NCBI GenBank assembly: GCA_030523555.1
Contig: JAUNIH010000010.1
Span: forward strand, 1 to 40,847
Source of the DNA: Erysipelotrichaceae bacterium
GTDB taxonomy: Bacteria; Bacillota_I; Bacilli_A; Erysipelotrichales; Erysipelotrichaceae
DNA: 40,847 nucleotides
Direction: 5' to 3'
This document shows positions 68 through 40,847 of the stretch, piece after piece (within the stretch, counting starts at the first letter, position 1; the number at the start of each line of letters is the position of its first letter). Both the position numbers and the translations under genes were made by a program. The notes beneath the pieces are model-generated. The model did no database searches and was not told where the DNA came from. It was given only the letters and a program-made list of their open reading frames with translations.

Positions 68-469
68 ATGAAGAATATATATAGACATACAAAGACAACT
101 GTATCACTGATCAATTATCATTTTGTGTTCTGCCCACGATACCGTAGAAAGATATTCAATATTGAAGGACTGGAAAGAAGATTCAGAGAACTGACAGTAA
201 ATGAATGTAACAGATGCGGTATCGAAATACTTGATCTGGAATGTCATGCAGACCATGTACATATTTATGTAAGCACTTTACCCGATATATCTATCCCTCA
301 GATAATGAGAATCATCAAGGATGCCTCATCTTTTGTATTAAGAGAAGAATTTGTAGAGCTTGGTGCTATGCCGAGTCTATGGACCAGGAACTATCTTGTA
401 AGTACAGAAAATACTCTTAATCCAGAAACCATTGAATGGTATGTGAATACCCAGAAGACAAGACCGTAG
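68..469 (+). CDS. tnpA: IS200/IS605 family transposase TnpA (Y1 HUH)
   Basis: This 133-residue protein is the single-strand DNA transposase that cuts and rejoins the element ends. The HUH metal-binding motif is H63-V64-H65 within CHADHVHIYVS. The expected catalytic tyrosine is Y125 in TIEWYVNTQ, close to the position in IS608 TnpA. Length and motif order are normal for the family, whose members act as dimers. The stop codon lies 8 bases before the tnpB start, so the two genes are probably co-transcribed. No frameshift or missing active-site residue is seen. Confidence 0.93.
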   Translation: MKNIYRHTKTTVSLINYHFVFCPRYRRKIFNIEGLERRFRELTVNECNRCGIEILDLECHADHVHIYVSTLPDISIPQIMRIIKDASSFVLREEFVELGAMPSLWTRNYLVSTENTLNPETIEWYVNTQKTRP

Positions 470-477
470 GAGCATAT

Positions 478-1644
478 ATGCGAAAAGGTGTTAAATTCAG
501 GGCATATCCGAATAAGGAACAGATAAATCTGATAAATCAGACTTTCGGCTGCTGCAGACTGATCTACAATAAAGGTCTTGCGATGCGCAATGATGGATAT
601 ACTAAAGGTCAAAAGGTAAACTATAACGATACTTCTGCCATGCTTACAGAGCTAAAGAAAACTGAGGAATTTGCTTTCTTAAAGTTAGTAGACTCCATGG
701 CGTTACAGCAGTCTCTTCGTGATCTTGACAGAGGCTTTGTCAACTTCTTTGAGAAAAGAGCGTCACACCCTCAGTTCAAAAGTAAACACAGCAGTCATCA
801 GTCATACAGGACTCTTAATCAGGACAATAATATCCGTATTACAGGAAATCGTATTAAGCTGCCAAAACTCGGATATGTAAAAATCAAACAATCAATGAGA
901 GTTGGCAAAATCAATAATGTAACAATTGAAAGAACACCTACAGGCAAGTATTTTGTAGTCCTCAATGTTGATTTTGAACCTGAGTTAAGACCCAATAATG
1001 GCGGCTCTATCGGTATTGATGTAGGTATAAAAGAATTCTATACCGAGTCCAGAGGTAACGTAGTAGATAATCCTAAATATCTGGAAAAGTCTATGCGTAA
1101 ACTAAAGCGTGAACAGAGAAAGCTCTCCCGCATGATAGAATCACATATCATAGGCTATAAAAAGGGTAAAAAAGGTGGTCGTATTCCTGTATATGATAAA
1201 CCGCTTAATGAATGTACGAATGTACAGAAACAGCGAATGGTGGTTGCAAAGCTCCATGAGAAGATTTCTAATCAAAGGAATGACTTTTTACAGAAACAGT
1301 CAACTATGTTAGTGCGTGAAAACCAAACAATCTGCATAGAAGACTTAAATGTAAAGGGTATGGTTAAAAATCATAAGTTGGCACAACATATATCAAGTGT
1401 GTCCTGGTCAAAGTTTTTTGATATGCTGGAATATAAAGCACAATGGTATGGTAATGACATAATCAGAATACCTGCTATGTATCCAAGCTCTCAGATCTGC
1501 AGCTGTTGCGGTTATAAATATCCGCTGGTTAAGAATCTGTATATCAGGAAATGGACCTGTCCCAACTGCGGAATCCTTCATGACAGAAATATAAACGCAG
1601 GTATCAACATATTAAACAAGGGATTAGAACTGTTAACAGCCTGA
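478..1644 (+). CDS. tnpB: TnpB, RNA-guided nuclease of IS605 element
   Basis: I chose the ATG at 478 because a TAGGAG ribosome site (467-472) precedes it and the protein then begins MRKGVKFRAYPN, as TnpB proteins do. It has 388 residues. The RuvC-like active site is complete: D171 (SIGIDVGIKEF), E278 (ICIEDLNVKG) and D359 (LHDRNINAGI). A four-cysteine zinc finger (CSCC and CPNC) sits between the last two. Characterised TnpB proteins, such as that of ISDra2, cut DNA next to a short target-adjacent motif using a guide RNA transcribed from the element's right end, which helps keep the element in place. All key residues are present, so activity is plausible. It is an ancestor-type relative of Cas12. 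Confidence 0.93.
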   Translation: MRKGVKFRAYPNKEQINLINQTFGCCRLIYNKGLAMRNDGYTKGQKVNYNDTSAMLTELKKTEEFAFLKLVDSMALQQSLRDLDRGFVNFFEKRASHPQFKSKHSSHQSYRTLNQDNNIRITGNRIKLPKLGYVKIKQSMRVGKINNVTIERTPTGKYFVVLNVDFEPELRPNNGGSIGIDVGIKEFYTESRGNVVDNPKYLEKSMRKLKREQRKLSRMIESHIIGYKKGKKGGRIPVYDKPLNECTNVQKQRMVVAKLHEKISNQRNDFLQKQSTMLVRENQTICIEDLNVKGMVKNHKLAQHISSVSWSKFFDMLEYKAQWYGNDIIRIPAMYPSSQICSCCGYKYPLVKNLYIRKWTCPNCGILHDRNINAGINILNKGLELLTA

Positions 1645-7226: not shown

Positions 7227-8420
7227 TTAAAACCACCTGTAGAATTCATTAATCAAATCAACATAATCACCTTTTATGATTATATGGTGATTGCCGATTG
7301 ATTCCTTAAGAAAATATTCAACACTTTCTTCCATTTTCAGTTTTATCTGCGTGCGGCAAAGATTGTACTGATTAAGGTTTTCTTCAAGAATTCCTCCTGA
7401 AACAAAGTCTCTCTGGGCAAGGCCGTCAGTCTTGAAGACAGTAACTTCTCCTTCCCTGATATGTCCTCTGAAAGAAACACCAAGTCCTGATTCATAATGA
7501 GTCATCAGTTCAACAGAATCATACATATTCACCGGTAAGGTGCAGTGGGCAAAGATAATTTCATTTGTGTCTGTCAGAATCTTTGAAGGATTTGCCTGGA
7601 AACAAGGCTCACCCGTCAGTTCGCCAAGTACAGCCATTGATATCAGAGCCGGAACATCACCCTCACACGCTGCATAGATACCTTCCGCATTAAGTATGGC
7701 AAGTGCCACACATCCTGTACTTTTTACTGGTTTAAGAAGATCAAAACATCTTACTGTAACCCCATCAAGCTGGTATTTATCAACTATTCTTTTTAAAGCT
7801 CCATAGATTTCTAAAGCCAGTTCTTTTTCTTTTTCATCAAAAGGATTCTTTTTGAACTCAAGAGTAAAACTGTTATCTTCATATTCTTTTCTTTTTATCT
7901 CATTGAAGAATTCTTCCATCTTTATATCAATTATTTCAATGCCGTTAATTTCCTTTGAAAGATCCGCATCGACATCGGAAGAAATAAGCCAGTCTGAAGG
8001 AACACCGACTCTTCCAAGACGGAAACTGTTCAGACGTTTTTTTGCCTTGAATACTTTATATAGACTTTTTATTCTTTCAGCCATATAGGTTTCAGAACCA
8101 TGTATGATTTCTCCTGGGATATCATTCTGGCGCATATAGGAAAGAATTTCCATAGAAGCCGCCAGAGAATTATTGGCACCGGAAGTAAGAAGAAATACCG
8201 GTTGAGGAAGTTTATCGGCAATCTTCAGAAATCTTCCTTCAACACCGCCTCCTCCGACAAAAATCATCGTCAGATCATATTCGTGCAGTTTATCCACTTC
8301 CACAATTTCCAGTTTCGCACCGGAAAGATCTGCGAGTTTTTCTATCAGCTGATAATTTTCCCTGTTGATACTTTCCCCTTGTGCATTTGTTGATTCAAGA
8401 TACCAGATACCGATTTTCAT
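7227..8420 (-). CDS. Fucose isomerase-like family protein
   Basis: A cytosolic protein of about 397 residues resembling the L-fucose/L-arabinose isomerase family (COG2407-type): an N-terminal Rossmann-like half (KIGIWYLES, then IFVGGGGVEG) and a C-terminal half with conserved acidic residues and glycine turns (CEGDVPALISMAVL, ANPSKI, FAHCTLP). True members interconvert aldoses and ketoses with a divalent metal. I cannot assign a substrate. The start at 8420 (ATGAAAATCGG) lies 11 bases after AAAGAGG; an in-frame ATG at 8429 is too close to that site. The gene is separated from the TrpR-like gene by a terminator and is almost contiguous with the S66 peptidase gene. Confidence 0.6.
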   Translation of the reverse strand: MKIGIWYLESTNAQGESINRENYQLIEKLADLSGAKLEIVEVDKLHEYDLTMIFVGGGGVEGRFLKIADKLPQPVFLLTSGANNSLAASMEILSYMRQNDIPGEIIHGSETYMAERIKSLYKVFKAKKRLNSFRLGRVGVPSDWLISSDVDADLSKEINGIEIIDIKMEEFFNEIKRKEYEDNSFTLEFKKNPFDEKEKELALEIYGALKRIVDKYQLDGVTVRCFDLLKPVKSTGCVALAILNAEGIYAACEGDVPALISMAVLGELTGEPCFQANPSKILTDTNEIIFAHCTLPVNMYDSVELMTHYESGLGVSFRGHIREGEVTVFKTDGLAQRDFVSGGILEENLNQYNLCRTQIKLKMEESVEYFLKESIGNHHIIIKGDYVDLINEFYRWF

Positions 8421-35118: not shown

Positions 35119-36282
35119 ATGAATGACAATATAGTACGTCTTGAATATAAAGACAAAGAAATATATCTTGTTAAAACTGCTCATGTATCCAAGAACTCTG
35201 TCGAAGATGTAAGACAGTGTATTGAAGAGATAGATCCTGATTCCATATGTATAGAACTTGACGGCCAGCGCTATGAAAAGATGAATAATCCTGATCAGTG
35301 GCGTGATACCGATATTATTAAAATCATCAGGGATAAACAGGTCGGTTTCTTCATGGTAAATCTTATTCTGGCATCATTCCAGAGAAGAATGGCCAAAACC
35401 ATGGACTCTAGCAGTGGTGGCGAAATGATGGAAGCCATCAGACTTTCCAAAGAAAAGAATAAGGAACTCGTTCTGGCAGACAGATCAATCAAAACGACAT
35501 TTGCGCGAATCTGGGCAAACCTTTCATTCAAGGAAAAGATATCCCTTCTTGCGGGTATCATCACTTCCATCTTTGACGATGAAGAAATAAGTGAAGAAGA
35601 ACTTCAGGCTTTAAAACAGGCTGATGCGATTGAGGCAGCATTAAACGAAGTAGCCAAGGAATTTCCAACCGTCAAAAGAATACTTGTCGATGAAAGAGAC
35701 CAGTACCTTTCGATGAAAATCAAAAACGCTCCTGGAAATAAGGTAGTAGCCGTTATCGGCGCAGCTCATGCGGGTGGTATTGAAAGAAATCTCAATAATG
35801 ATTTCTCTATTGAAGATCTTGAAAATGTAGAGTCTAAAAAAGGTATCGGAACATATCTTAAATGGGCCATACCGCTTATTATTATCGGCTTACTGGGATA
35901 TACCTTATATGCCAATCGAAATGCCGGTATGGAATCAATAAAATCTTGGATTATATTTAACGGCTGTTTTTCAGCTTTAGGTACCTTACTGGCGGGCGGA
36001 CATATCCTGTCGATTATTACGGCATTTATCATGTCCCCTATCACATCTTTGAATCCTTTGCTGGCTGCAGGTTTCTTTGCGGGTTTTGTGGAGGCATATG
36101 TCAGAAAGCCAAAGGTAAAAGATTTTGAAGATCTGAATGAAGATGCACAGACCCTTAAGGGTTTCTATAAGAACAAGGTCACCAGAACCCTGATGGTCGT
36201 TCTTTTTGCGAATATCTTTTCTTCAATAGGAACTTTTGTATCTTCAATCGATATTGTAAGAAGACTGTTTCAGATCCTTTAA
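35119..36282 (+). CDS. TraB/PrgY family membrane protein
   Basis: The 387-residue protein has the TraB/GumN-like N-terminal domain (KTAHVSKNSVEDV, CIELDGQRYEKM, AVIGAAHAGGIERNL) with conserved His and Glu residues that suggest a metal-dependent hydrolase, then three or four hydrophobic helices (about 255-385). PrgY of enterococcal plasmids limits pheromone inhibitor activity, but chromosomal relatives have no settled role. There is no ribosome site, and TATAAT lies six bases before the ATG, so the message may be leaderless. I would call it a predicted membrane peptidase-like protein. Confidence 0.8.
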   Translation: MNDNIVRLEYKDKEIYLVKTAHVSKNSVEDVRQCIEEIDPDSICIELDGQRYEKMNNPDQWRDTDIIKIIRDKQVGFFMVNLILASFQRRMAKTMDSSSGGEMMEAIRLSKEKNKELVLADRSIKTTFARIWANLSFKEKISLLAGIITSIFDDEEISEEELQALKQADAIEAALNEVAKEFPTVKRILVDERDQYLSMKIKNAPGNKVVAVIGAAHAGGIERNLNNDFSIEDLENVESKKGIGTYLKWAIPLIIIGLLGYTLYANRNAGMESIKSWIIFNGCFSALGTLLAGGHILSIITAFIMSPITSLNPLLAAGFFAGFVEAYVRKPKVKDFEDLNEDAQTLKGFYKNKVTRTLMVVLFANIFSSIGTFVSSIDIVRRLFQIL

Positions 36283-36408: not shown

Positions 36409-37485
36409 ATGTTACGTGTTGGTATGCTGACAAGCGGCGGTGACTGTCAGGCACTTAATGCCACAATGAGAGGTGTGGTCAAAACAATCCTTAACAATAG
36501 TAAGGAACCTGTAGAAATCTATGGTTTTGAAGATGGCTACAAAGGACTGATCTATGGTCAGTTTCGTCTTCTGACCGGGGATGATTTTTCCGGTATTCTC
36601 TCTCACGGTGGAACAATTCTGGGTACCAGCAGAGTTCCTTTCAAGACAATAGATGAACCTGATGAGAACGGCGTCAATAAAGTAGAAGCCATGAAACAGA
36701 CCTATCACAAGTTAAGACTCAATTGTCTGGTGATTCTGGGTGGCAACGGTTCTTTAAAGACTGCCAACCGTTTAAGTGAAGAAGGACTCAATGTTGTAGC
36801 TCTTCCTAAAACAATAGATAACGACATCTACGGTACCGATATGACTTTCGGTTTCCACAGTGCCGTAAATGTGGCATCAAACGCCATTGAATGTATTCAT
36901 ACGACAGCCAACTCCCATGGCCGTGTATTTATCGTGGAAATCATGGGACATAAAGTTGGATGGTTACCTTTATATGCCGGTATCGCCTCTGGAGCGGATG
37001 TCATCCTGATTCCGGAAATCCCTTATGATATCGACAAGGTTATTGATGTCATTGAAGAAAGAGACAGAAACGGCAGCCGTTTCACCATCATTGCGGTAGC
37101 TGAAGGCGCTATCTCCAAGAAAGATGCGGAACTGTCCAAAAAAGACTATAAAAAGAAACTCACCAATTACGAATTCCCTTCTGTTTCCTATGAAATTGCC
37201 GCTGCAATTGAGGAAAAGACCGGAAGAGAAGTACGTGTAACTGTACCAGGTCACACCCAGAGAGGTGGAAGTCCGGTACCATACGACAGAATCTTTGCCA
37301 CCCGTATCGGTGCAGTCGGCGGCAAGATGGTTATCGACAAAGAATACGGATATATGGTTACCTATTTATCCCGTGTAGTTACCAAGGTACCGCTTAGTGA
37401 AGTAGCCGGTAAACTCAAATATGTCGATCCTGAGTCTGATATCGTTCAGGAGGCAAGACTTATTGGCATCAGCTTTGGTGACTGA
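36409..37485 (+). CDS. 6-phosphofructokinase, atypical active site
   Basis: The 358-residue phosphofructokinase has MLTSGGDCQALNA, PKTIDNDI and GHTQRGGSPVPYDR. At the nucleotide site it reads GGNGSLKTA (111-119), where E. coli PfkA has GGDGS; the Mg-binding Asp is Asn. K134 in LPKTIDND replaces the Gly of ATP enzymes, and the F6P-binding MGR motif is MGH (IMGHKVGWL). Gly at the second key position plus Lys at this one is the mixed group III pattern, often ATP-dependent but without allosteric control. The phosphoryl donor (ATP or pyrophosphate) is therefore open. GGGGAGG precedes the ATG. It is followed by ppk. Confidence 0.88.
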   Translation: MLRVGMLTSGGDCQALNATMRGVVKTILNNSKEPVEIYGFEDGYKGLIYGQFRLLTGDDFSGILSHGGTILGTSRVPFKTIDEPDENGVNKVEAMKQTYHKLRLNCLVILGGNGSLKTANRLSEEGLNVVALPKTIDNDIYGTDMTFGFHSAVNVASNAIECIHTTANSHGRVFIVEIMGHKVGWLPLYAGIASGADVILIPEIPYDIDKVIDVIEERDRNGSRFTIIAVAEGAISKKDAELSKKDYKKKLTNYEFPSVSYEIAAAIEEKTGREVRVTVPGHTQRGGSPVPYDRIFATRIGAVGGKMVIDKEYGYMVTYLSRVVTKVPLSEVAGKLKYVDPESDIVQEARLIGISFGD

Positions 37486-37572
37486 TAATATATGCATATA
37501 TTTGACAGGATCATGAATGCCTTTAACAGTTTATTGTCAAGGCATAAAACTGATATGAAAGGAAGCCCTTAT

Positions 37573-39870
37573 ATGGCAAAAAAGAAAAAGAAGAAAATCG
37601 AAGAAGTGCCTGTATTCAAAAACAGTATTTCCACAGAGGAGGATTTAGGCGAAACTATTACCGGCTTAAAATCCGAACTTTATGAAGATATTGAATCTGT
37701 ACCTTCGAAAAAAGAACTTAAACGTCTTTTAAGAATCGCTGATGAAGCAGAAGATGACGATGATAAAGACGAAGAAATCAGAAGCTGTTTCACCAACCGT
37801 GAACTCTCTTGGCTCTTATTCAATGAAAGAGTGCTGAATGAAGCCGGAAATCCTAGAGTTCCGCTGGCTGAACGTCTGACCTTCGCATCTATTTTCCAGA
37901 CCAACCTTGATGAATTCTTCATGGTCAGAGTCGGAACCCTGATGGTACAGATGTCATCTGAAGAAAACATCAGAGATAATAAGACAGGTATGTCCTGCAA
38001 GAAACAGGTCAAAGCCATTCTCAAGGAAGTAAAAAGACTCGAAAAGAAAAGAGCTGTCATTTACGATCAGCTGATGGGTGAACTCGAACCTAAAGGCATA
38101 CGTCTTATCAACTTCCGTAAACTCTCTTATGAAGAAACAGGTTTCCTGGAGACTTACTTTGATGCCCATATCGCACCTTTCTTAACACCAATGGTCTTAA
38201 GCAAGCAGCAGCCGTTCCCGTTCCTTGAAAACAAACAGCTTTACGCTGTAGTATCACTGGGTTCAAGAAGTTCCAAGAATTCTTTAGGTATTGTGCCATG
38301 TTCTAACAGCGTCTTTAAACGTCTGATTGAAATTCCTACAAGACCTGGTAACTATATGCTGAGTGAAGAACTTATCTTACACTTTGTGGGCAAGATCTTC
38401 CCTCACTTTGAAATCAAAGAAAAATCCATCATGCGTGTAACCAGAAATGCCGATATTGAAGGCATTGAAGTCTACGATGAAGATATGAACTACCGTGATG
38501 TCATGGAACAGCTCATCAAGAAACGTACACGTCTTAATCCTGTAAGAGTTGAAATTACCAGAAAACTCAGCAAAGGTCTTCTCAAAGAGATTGCGAAGAA
38601 TATGTTTATTGATACTTCGCACATTATCGATGTTGATACACCGCTTGATCTGTCGTATGTCTCAACCTTAAGAAAGTATCTTGTAGACAAACAGGAACTC
38701 TTCTATAATCCGAGAAAACCTCAGGATTCTGCCATGGTTGATACTTCAAAACCGATTATTCCTCAGGCTCTTGAAAAAGATATCCTGTTGTCATATCCGT
38801 TTGAAAGTATGAAACCATTCCTGCAGCTTCTTGATGAAGCCGCTACCGATAAGGATGTCGTTTCAATAAAGATGACTTTATACCGTGTAGCTTCCCAGAG
38901 TAAGATTGTCGATACTCTGATAAAAGCCGCTGAAAACGGCAAGGAAGTTGTCGTACTTCTGGAACTTCGTGCAAGATTCGATGAAGAAAACAACATCGAT
39001 ATGTCTAGATTACTCGAAGAAGCCGGATGTCGAATCCTGTATGGTCTTGAAGACTATAAGGTTCATTCAAAACTGTGTCTGATCTCAAGACGCATTCATA
39101 ACGCTGAAAGCAGCGTTCAGTATATTACCCAGATCGGTACCGGTAACTACAACGAAAAGACCGCTACCTTATATACTGACCTGGCGCTTGTTACAGCCAA
39201 CCAGAAGATTGGTGCTGAAGTCGCAAGTGTCTTCGCCCACCTTTTACAGTCTGAAGTTCTGGATAAAACGGAAGAACTTCTGGTATCACCATTATGTCTT
39301 CAGAACAAGGTTCTTGGTATGATGGATGAACAGATAAAAAGAGCGCAGAAAGGAAAGGAAGCCTATATCGGTGTCAAAGTAAATTCCTTTACGGATAAAG
39401 CTATCCTGACCAAGATGATTGAATGTTCCAGAGCCGGTGTAAAGGTTGATCTTGTGGTACGTGGTATCTGCTGTCTTATTCCAGGCATTCCTGGTTTGAC
39501 TGAAAATATCCGCGTTGTAAGTATCGTCGGAAGATATCTCGAACACTCAAGAATCTACATCTTCGGTAAAGGCAAGGGACGCAAGATCTATATCGCTTCA
39601 GCCGACTTCATGACCAGAAACACTACAAGACGTGTGGAAGTTGCGGCACCAATCCATGACCGCAAACTTCAGAACCGTATTCTTCATATGTTCGACACAA
39701 TGATGAACGATGATGAAAAAGGTAAGGAACTCACAAGTGAAGGTGTCTATGTTGACCGTCACATCAATGAGACTCCACTCAATTCACAGGAAGTTCTCTT
39801 CGATGAAGCATACGCTGCCGCAAAAAGAGCTGCAGCTCACAAAGCAAAAACAAACGGGGTTAATAAATAA
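37573..39870 (+). CDS. ppk1: Polyphosphate kinase 1
   Basis: The 765-residue protein has the PPK1 domain order: N-terminal NRELSWLLFNERVLNEA, central domain, then two PLD-like halves with the autophosphorylated histidine in YKVHSKLCLI and a second in EHSRIYIFGKG. It reversibly polymerises ATP phosphate into polyphosphate. I chose the ATG at 37573 because AAAGGA (37558-37563) precedes it; an ATG at 37492 would add 27 residues without a ribosome site. The first 70 residues are lysine- and acid-rich and not part of the core. It is probably co-transcribed with the phosphofructokinase gene. Confidence 0.93.
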   Translation: MAKKKKKKIEEVPVFKNSISTEEDLGETITGLKSELYEDIESVPSKKELKRLLRIADEAEDDDDKDEEIRSCFTNRELSWLLFNERVLNEAGNPRVPLAERLTFASIFQTNLDEFFMVRVGTLMVQMSSEENIRDNKTGMSCKKQVKAILKEVKRLEKKRAVIYDQLMGELEPKGIRLINFRKLSYEETGFLETYFDAHIAPFLTPMVLSKQQPFPFLENKQLYAVVSLGSRSSKNSLGIVPCSNSVFKRLIEIPTRPGNYMLSEELILHFVGKIFPHFEIKEKSIMRVTRNADIEGIEVYDEDMNYRDVMEQLIKKRTRLNPVRVEITRKLSKGLLKEIAKNMFIDTSHIIDVDTPLDLSYVSTLRKYLVDKQELFYNPRKPQDSAMVDTSKPIIPQALEKDILLSYPFESMKPFLQLLDEAATDKDVVSIKMTLYRVASQSKIVDTLIKAAENGKEVVVLLELRARFDEENNIDMSRLLEEAGCRILYGLEDYKVHSKLCLISRRIHNAESSVQYITQIGTGNYNEKTATLYTDLALVTANQKIGAEVASVFAHLLQSEVLDKTEELLVSPLCLQNKVLGMMDEQIKRAQKGKEAYIGVKVNSFTDKAILTKMIECSRAGVKVDLVVRGICCLIPGIPGLTENIRVVSIVGRYLEHSRIYIFGKGKGRKIYIASADFMTRNTTRRVEVAAPIHDRKLQNRILHMFDTMMNDDEKGKELTSEGVYVDRHINETPLNSQEVLFDEAYAAAKRAAAHKAKTNGVNK

Positions 39871-39882
39871 TCCCGTTTTTTT
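39853..39882 (+). terminator. Rho-independent terminator after ppk1
   Basis: AACGGG (39853-39858) pairs with CCCGTT (39872-39877) and is followed by seven Ts. The ppk1 stop codon lies in the loop region. It is clearly oriented to the plus strand. Confidence 0.85.
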
Positions 39883-39891
39883 ATAATCAAT

Positions 39892-39918
39892 AAAAAAGAT
39901 TCCTTCAGAGGAATCTTT
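39892..39918 (-). terminator. Rho-independent terminator, probably of the disrupted tRNA gene
   Basis: AAAGATTCCT (39895-39904), loop TCAG and AGGAATCTTT (39909-39918) form a 10-bp perfect stem. On the minus strand it ends in six Ts. It starts about 10 bases after the CCA of the tRNA 3'-end fragment, exactly where a tRNA terminator is expected. Confidence 0.75.
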
Positions 39919-39928
39919 ATTTCTATCA

Positions 39929-39950
39929 TGGTGCCGACAACAGGAATTGA
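39929..39950 (-). other. tRNA 3'-end fragment, likely prophage attachment core
   Basis: Read on the minus strand, 39950-39929 is TCAATTCC-TGT-TGTCGGC-A-CCA: T-loop end, 3' side of the T stem, 3' side of a 7-base acceptor stem, discriminator A and an encoded CCA. Upstream of it there is no D arm or anticodon arm. The matching 5' acceptor strand would be GCCGACA, as in some Bacillota tRNA-Thr genes, though identity is a guess. This is the signature of an element that integrated at a tRNA 3' end. Confidence 0.65.
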
Positions 39951-40046
39951 CAAAATACAAATAGCAACATATTCAAAATAACGCTAAAACGCTTTATTTA
40001 TCGGTTATTTTCACATTTTTACAAATCGGAAGAGATTTAAAAAAAG

Positions 40047-40096
40047 GTAGCCATTTGGTAGCCATTTTGGAAAAACATAGCCAAAAAGTAGCCATT
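40047..40096 (+). repeat. Direct repeats GTAGCCATT, candidate integrase arm-type sites
   Basis: GTAGCCATT occurs at 40047, 40058 and 40088, and a degenerate copy (TAGCCAAAA) at about 40078. The repeats form two pairs, each with an 11-base step, and the pairs are about 30 bases apart. Arm-type sites of tyrosine integrases are short repeats beside the attachment core; here they start about 100 bases from the tRNA fragment. Confidence 0.5.
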
Positions 40097-40114
40097 GATG
40101 TTGACAAAATCAAC

Positions 40115-40140
40115 AAAAAAAGACCAGGGAACCCCCTGGC
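40115..40140 (-). terminator. Rho-independent terminator after phage-type genes
   Basis: CCAGGG (40124-40129), loop AACC and CCCTGG (40134-40139) form a GC-rich stem. On the minus strand it is followed by seven Ts. It lies a few bases after the stop of the 134-residue gene. Confidence 0.88.
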
Positions 40141-40145
40141 CTTAA

Positions 40146-40550
40146 TCATAAAAAGTCATCTTGCTGATAATGCTCGCGGATTTTCTTTATGCTCATCCCC
40201 GCTATGCTGTTTTTGAAGTGTTTATGCTTTTCCTGGGAACAGAAGTCCTCATAGGAATCGCAGTCAAGCAGTACGTTTTCGTACATGTCTTTTGAATGTT
40301 TAGTCCCTGCTCGGATTTCATCTGCAAATCGCAGGATTCTGGTACGACAATCTTTTGCCTTATCTTCTGCATATTTGTCGTGGAACGCGTCCGTATCACC
40401 CTTAAGGTTTGCGATGTTCTTATCCATCGTGTCTATCTTAAGCAAGATATCCTGGGTCTTGTCTTTTTTGCTCTGGAGATAACTCCAAAAGCCAGACGAT
40501 CCGAATATGGCCACTACAATTGACACGATGAGCGTCGCTATATCACTCAT
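40146..40550 (-). CDS. Small phage-type membrane protein, function unknown
   Basis: The 134-residue protein begins with one hydrophobic helix (SDIATLIVSIVVAIFGSSGFW) and continues with a charged, largely helical cytosolic or external part (about 25-134) that includes a coiled-coil-like KIDTMDKNIANLKGDTD. Similar one-helix proteins occur near holin and lysin genes of Firmicute phages, but I do not recognise a named family. Its ATG overlaps the upstream stop (AATGAGTGA), so translation is coupled, and a GGAGGTGCTGA ribosome site lies in the upstream gene. A strong terminator follows. Confidence 0.7.
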   Translation of the reverse strand: MSDIATLIVSIVVAIFGSSGFWSYLQSKKDKTQDILLKIDTMDKNIANLKGDTDAFHDKYAEDKAKDCRTRILRFADEIRAGTKHSKDMYENVLLDCDSYEDFCSQEKHKHFKNSIAGMSIKKIREHYQQDDFL

Positions 40551-40847
40551 TCAGCACCTCCTCTATCTTCTTGAGTTTTGCTTTCAGCCTTGCGTTTTCG
40601 TCTTTTAGGACATCAACCTGGGCTGTGAGCTGTCTGAATAGTTCTTCTATTTCTCTGATAGGATCATCAATGCTTTCGGCCGGATAATAGCTTACTCCGT
40701 CAACACCTGCCATGTAGTAGTTTTCTACTTTGTACCAGGTGGTTCCTTCATTGCCACGATCCTCCCATTTTCCGCCTTCGGTCTTTTCAGCGTTGTAATA
40801 ACCAACATTAGCAATGCCCTTAATTGTTGACTGAATATTTGCTTCGG
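40543..40847 (-). CDS. Phage-type protein, C-terminal part (runs off the window)
   Basis: The frame is open from the window edge (5' end missing) to a TGA at 40543-40545, about 100 residues. It holds a Tyr/Trp-rich stretch (ANVGYYNAEKTEGGKWEDRG, then TWYKVENYYMAGVDGV) and a C-terminal coiled coil (EIEELFRQLTAQVDVLKDEN to KIEEVLNE). The order fits a tail-tip, baseplate or lysis-module protein of a phage, but the family cannot be named from this part. It overlaps the next gene by four codons' worth of shared bases at most (stop inside the next start region). Confidence 0.6.
   Translation of the reverse strand, partial: EANIQSTIKGIANVGYYNAEKTEGGKWEDRGNEGTTWYKVENYYMAGVDGVSYYPAESIDDPIREIEELFRQLTAQVDVLKDENARLKAKLKKIEEVLNE

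Follow-up and report, generated by a model that had tools for sequence, protein, structure and literature searches.

The window, the whole stretch of 40,847 nucleotides analysed here, is one contig of a draft genome (G000; 95 contigs, 95.46% complete) of an Erysipelotrichaceae bacterium. Near its left end (68-1644, plus strand), it carries an IS200/IS605-type pair of genes, one for a Y1 transposase (Pfam E 7.8e-28), the other for a TnpB/OrfB-like protein whose TNB domain is Cas12f1-like. At its right end, a chromosomal flank containing a polyphosphate kinase gene (ppk) gives way to phage-like DNA at a short piece of a tRNA gene, and the features of this boundary are collected in Table 1.

Table 1. 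Features at and around the tRNA gene fragment (window coordinates).
Feature	Coordinates	Strand	Evidence
Host TraB/PrgY/GumN-family gene	35119..36282	+	Pfam; relatives near the tRNA-Val-Thr pair in the genus (by eye)
Polyphosphate kinase PPK1 of the host, in the chromosomal flank and running towards the displaced tRNA end	37492..39870	+	Four PP_kinase Pfam domains
Intrinsic-terminator-like hairpin	39895..39918	-	10 pairs, 4-nt loop, T-tail; fold; relatives' hairpin-like ends
Displaced 3' fragment of tRNA-Thr(UGU), T55 to A76	39929..39950	-	Exact match to genes of two relatives (G008, G023); 0/100 shuffles
Four TAGCCA repeats, putatively arm-type sites for integrase binding in one arm of attP	40046..40098		Hexamer-cluster test; SMO_1P analogue
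Terminator-like hairpin following the phage late gene	40120..40143	-	10 pairs, 6 G-C, T-tail
134-aa protein with relatives among phage late-module proteins; final gene ahead of the attachment site	40146..40550	-	phrog_37604; phage records
ORF truncated at the contig end, possibly phage tail-fibre-like	40543..40845	-	phrog_21546; weak evidence

The tRNA piece consists of the 22 bases TCAATTCCTGTTGTCGGCACCA, which end in an encoded CCA and are identical to T55-A76 of the intact tRNA-Thr(UGU) genes called by ARAGORN in two genomes of the same genus (G008 and G023). In an alignment with four intact same-genus genes, tRNA identity is lost immediately 5' of T55, the match stopping at position 54. 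The 22-mer occurs only once in the window, even allowing up to 3 mismatches, and none of 100 shuffled sequences contained a match to it, even at 3 mismatches. ARAGORN found no tRNA in the window and no Rfam family reached its gathering score there; six sub-threshold Rfam matches fell within 37000-40847, three of them over the stretch of the fragment. The original prediction that this minus-strand segment is the 3' end of a tRNA, and that the rest of the tRNA is missing, is thus confirmed on both counts. The fragment lies between the ppk stop (39870) and the end of the nearest phage-side ORF, outside every ORF of 80 aa or more. As in the tDNA islands defined by Islander, a terminal tRNA piece is found without the rest of its gene and outside any conserved coding domain. 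Two other origins for the fragment were considered and rejected: tRNA-Leu, a first guess from the acceptor sequence, was ruled out by the matches in relatives, which are to tRNA-Thr, and the genome's own Thr(CGU) gene differs from the 22-mer at 3 places in its last 22 bases and has a hairpin-like end of its own (by eye). The 22-base identity block would constitute the core of an attachment site, with the crossover presumably falling somewhere within these 22 bp. A 10-mer, TTGACAAAAT, is found both at the core edge (39947-39956) and just past the repeats (40101-40110), probably by chance.

Matches to the 22-mer with at most 2 mismatches are present in 51 of 147 genomes (the genome under study, itself counted, and 146 relatives) and, by manual count, in 16 of 35 same-genus relatives. 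Exact matches outside the genus include tRNA-Thr(CGU) genes (G095 and G068), and the viral contig collection contains no exact match. The locus was examined in 12 of the 16 same-genus genomes with this tRNA-Thr end, and in 11 of those 12 Thr(UGU) is immediately preceded by Val(UAC). In some other genera the Val-Thr pair directly precedes Tyr; within the genus, the pair lies 2.1 kb upstream of a Tyr-Gln-Lys-Gly cluster on one contig in G008, and on a separate contig from this cluster in G001 and G015. In G035 the pattern occurs twice, and the additional copy, considered as another scar, turned out to be a second genuine Val-Thr pair.

The terminator that had been predicted directly after the tRNA end is present as a 10-pair hairpin with a T-tail, starting 10 nt after the CCA on the minus strand, and a fold of 39890-39960 has a free energy of -16.5 kcal/mol (z -2.69). 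The stem is not exclusive to the tRNA strand, since it scores on the plus strand too, where another tail follows it. The intact tRNA-Thr genes of same-genus relatives are followed by hairpin-like sequence with T-runs (by eye), so that the fragment seems to keep the end of the original tRNA operon, and the hairpin is presumably the original terminator of that operon, left behind with the displaced 3' piece.

On the chromosomal side, ppk has its own terminator-like hairpin at 39852-39878. At E ≤ 1e-50, PPK1 was detected in this genome and in 1 of the 35 other genomes of the genus (49% identity), its distribution in the genus being patchy. The TraB-family gene lies 3.6 kb from the scar, and a gene of this family was seen (by eye) upstream of the tRNA pair in 5 of 10 loci listed, a sample in which nine loci are from the same genus and three of those lacking TraB had only 1.5 kb of flank. 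The relative orientation of the TraB-family gene and the tRNA is opposite here to that found in relatives, which indicates that the region has been rearranged, and the arrangement of the scar with a TraB-family gene nearby appears partly consistent with that of the genus. Another frequent neighbour of the tRNA pair in relatives, alr, is located here on a different contig, without a tRNA. No empty site with ppk beside tRNA-Thr was found, as no tRNA was present in the fetched flank of the PPK1 locus of that one other genome of the genus or of 11 ppk-like loci taken from relatives by DNA comparison.

Past the broken edge of the tRNA, the contig continues for 897 bp and ends at 40847, inside the element. 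The phage-type sequence placed at this edge by the original prediction is indeed phage-like; the closest ORF in it stops 196 bp short of the fragment, and two ORFs of at least 80 aa are visible in these 897 bp. The 134-aa ORF matches phrog_37604, a family of unknown function, with E 4.9e-12. At a cut-off of E ≤ 0.01, it finds relatives in 6 of 50,697 phage records, with identities of 30-36% and a best E of 1e-12, and two of these align over at least 80% of its length. It has no match in Pfam or NCBIfam, and a search of 293 related genomes returned one weak relative only (E 6.8e-4, in G179); its surroundings are a tail and lysis region of phage-like character, and the 4.5-kb contig on which it lies has no tRNA. 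The ORF cut by the contig end (100 aa) matches the tail fiber family phrog_21546 weakly (E 1.1e-4) and has no match among the phage records at E ≤ 0.01 with tblastn. Neither ORF has a relative among the viral contigs, in a search that finds close relatives only.

Between the tRNA fragment and the first ORF, the hexamer TAGCCA occurs four times (40048, 40059, 40078 and 40089), as two pairs each spaced 11 bp. This is the sole hexamer cluster in the window (4 same-strand copies within 60 bp, for hexamers with at least 3 different letters), and in 40 first-order Markov sequences put through the same test the average was 0.025 clusters and the maximum 1. The repeats are known on one side of the core only, and the other arm would lie beyond the assembled DNA. 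A 17-base stretch of the repeats has 7 matches in viral contigs and 28 in genome contigs. No integrase was recognised beside these 35 stretches with a custom pattern that was possibly too strict, tRNAs were found in 5 of the 20 that were scanned, and the open frames listed for 10 of the 35 gave no clear answer. Our impression is that several of them seem to lie within coding DNA, and as a group they neither support nor refute the reading of the repeats as arm sites. Separately, TAGCCATTTGGTAGCCA occurs within about 400 bases of the contig end in five contigs (L108, L110, L114, L116 and L129) assigned to Oscillospiraceae, Clostridium and uncultured-bacterium bins; several of these carry similar GC-rich stretches alongside, and they are possibly related recombination sites.

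A comparable arrangement is found in the circular genome of the Solobacterium phage SMO_1P (MZ503613.1). There, the endolysin is followed by a final late gene that encodes the relative of the 134-aa protein (hypothetical protein_17, 33% identity over 104 aligned positions), and roughly 300 bp further on a tyrosine integrase gene, convergent with it, has its 3' end. The intervening gap contains a hairpin (by eye) and paired copies of AGTTCTCC at 7340/7352 and 7561/7572 of L095. SMO_1P and the window thus have in common a homologous last late gene followed by a hairpin and then by paired direct repeats with a spacing of 11-12 bp. The repeat sequence of SMO_1P, on the other hand, differs from TAGCCA, and a scan of the SMO_1P stretch for TAGCCAWWW returned 1 match against 1.36 expected. 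Unlike in the window, no tRNA-Thr end was noticed in the gap. By analogy with this phage, the fragment would be located at the late-gene end of a prophage, away from its integrase.

These features are in line with what has been described for integration into tRNA genes. Tyrosine integrases that target tRNA genes are reported to rely on an attP that holds a fragment of the gene, so that integration restores a functional tRNA and the ends of the island are marked by the regenerated tDNA and the displaced fragment, with crossover sites lying in the anticodon loop, in the T loop or at the junction of the T and acceptor stems (PMC4383910). The identity block in the window begins in the T loop, and Islander tDNA islands of class J (T loop or T/acceptor-stem junction) share with the window a fragment that extends from the T loop through CCA and borders element DNA where it is broken. 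In contrast to the full Islander signature, no intact tRNA-Thr(UGU) and no partner integrase were recognised in the assembly here. Prophages of Oenococcus oeni are likewise described as combining a tRNA attB with direct repeats of about 10 bp proposed as arm sites, and they differ from the present case in the tRNAs used, in the repeat sequences and in the host (PMC8074189). Partial tRNA genes originating from integration are widespread according to PMC9897764.

On this basis, we consider it highly probable that a temperate phage or phage-like element integrated into tRNA-Thr(UGU) and that the fragment represents one end of the prophage. The target gene would have been on the minus strand, facing ppk, and an attP with a copy of the 3' end of tRNA-Thr(UGU) would have recombined with it, probably through a tyrosine recombinase. 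The copy provided by the phage would have restored a complete tRNA beside the integrase, at the far end, while the original last 22 bases and their terminator would have been displaced to the near end, the stretch contained in the window. The TAGCCA repeats would form one arm of attP, bound by the N-terminal domain of the integrase. The contig itself carries the exact tRNA-Thr end with its sharp edge, the repeats, the relative of a phage late gene and the host flank; from these we infer an integrase and its type, a rebuilt tRNA past the contig end, a crossover within the 22 bp and the function of the repeats, in a prophage that may be complete or active. The original prediction of integration into a tRNA gene with the 3' piece left behind is supported by the sharp edge, by the repeats and by the late-gene relative that adjoins an integrase in SMO_1P. 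Its reading of the fragment as a displaced tRNA end, here of tRNA-Thr, is very likely correct, and the half that concerns the intact tRNA and the integrase is one that we infer.

The search for a tRNA with the same 22 bases elsewhere in the genome, put forward with the original prediction as its test, found no other copy in the assembly at up to 2 mismatches, which, read literally, is the outcome named there as refuting the prediction. The assembly contains 35 tRNA matches above the Rfam cut-off, all 35 of which were given anticodons; one further match, which fell below the cut-off, yielded no tRNA. The 35 include Thr(CGU) and Thr(GGU) but neither Thr(UGU) nor any tRNA-Val. Because Thr(UGU) and all tRNA-Val, which the cell needs and which are neighbours in relatives, are missing together, the absence of a second 22-mer is best taken as an assembly gap and not as a refutation, and we judge the test to be uninformative. 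The missing Thr(UGU) and Val would be exactly the pair expected beyond the prophage. Counting against this explanation, the pair might instead lie upstream of a tRNA-Tyr at the broken end of contig C77, which breaks 4 nt before the start of that tRNA, given that Thr precedes Tyr in some genera and that Val-Thr is found upstream of the Tyr cluster in G008. The assembly has three Phage_integrase matches, on C59 and C15, in open frames of 285-309 aa; no tRNA is present in their fetched flanks, and no partner integrase was recognised in the assembly. No HK97-type capsid gene was found in the assembly either, a weak point, as the family is missing in 10 of the 14 genomes used as controls. The opposite relative orientation of TraB and tRNA, the lack of an exact 22-mer match among viral contigs and the shortness of the phage side (897 bp, with one of its two ORFs weakly phage-like) also count against the explanation.

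The lack of a recognised capsid gene and partner integrase, together with the presence of just two visible phage-side ORFs of at least 80 aa, would also fit a fragment left by integration of an element that has since been largely deleted or replaced, with only a phage stub persisting. We regard this as unlikely: the fragment is unmutated over 22 bases relative to the tRNA of two relatives, the repeats and hairpins are in place, and the contig simply ends, prophage contigs being often lost in binning. This reading shares the integration step with the prophage interpretation, and the confidences assigned to the two overlap and do not sum to one. It is considerably less probable that a phage satellite or an integrative conjugative element, and not a phage, occupies the same tRNA-Thr site. 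Two ORFs are all that is seen, and tRNA sites are used by many kinds of integrative islands (PMC4383910), but proteins related to the 134-aa ORF occur among phage records and within the late region of a phage, and the cut ORF points, weakly, to a phage too. Less credible still is a chimeric assembly, with sequence from two unrelated molecules fused somewhere within the 22 bases. The genome is a draft of 95 contigs, and these bases would be repeated in it if the intact tRNA exists; 22 bp, however, is short for a false join, and a random join would leave unexplained a phage side with the repeats and late gene typical of the vicinity of an attachment site. Finally, the six sub-threshold Rfam matches, three of them over the stretch, might suggest a coincidental match or some other type of small RNA, a reading that can be set aside given the identity of all 22 bases to a same-genus tRNA-Thr, the shuffled-sequence control and the absence of any Rfam family at gathering score.

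On the prophage interpretation, the locus is a tDNA-integrated element of the ordinary sort. Such arrangements are common and well understood, and this one is visible from one side only because the assembly stops inside the virus. Since the 134-aa protein has one weak relative in 293 related genomes and at most 36% identity to proteins of 6 of 50,697 phage records, with no close relative among viral contigs, the TAGCCA pairs and the tRNA-Thr core could denote an undescribed temperate phage lineage of this genus, sharing a late gene with SMO_1P and having its own integrase specificity, a proposal that we regard as evenly balanced. No new principle is involved. With one boundary of a probable prophage fixed and its target gene named, the chromosomal and phage parts of the contig can be separated, and the tRNAs that a cell needs but this draft genome lacks may lie past a prophage left out of the assembly or bin.
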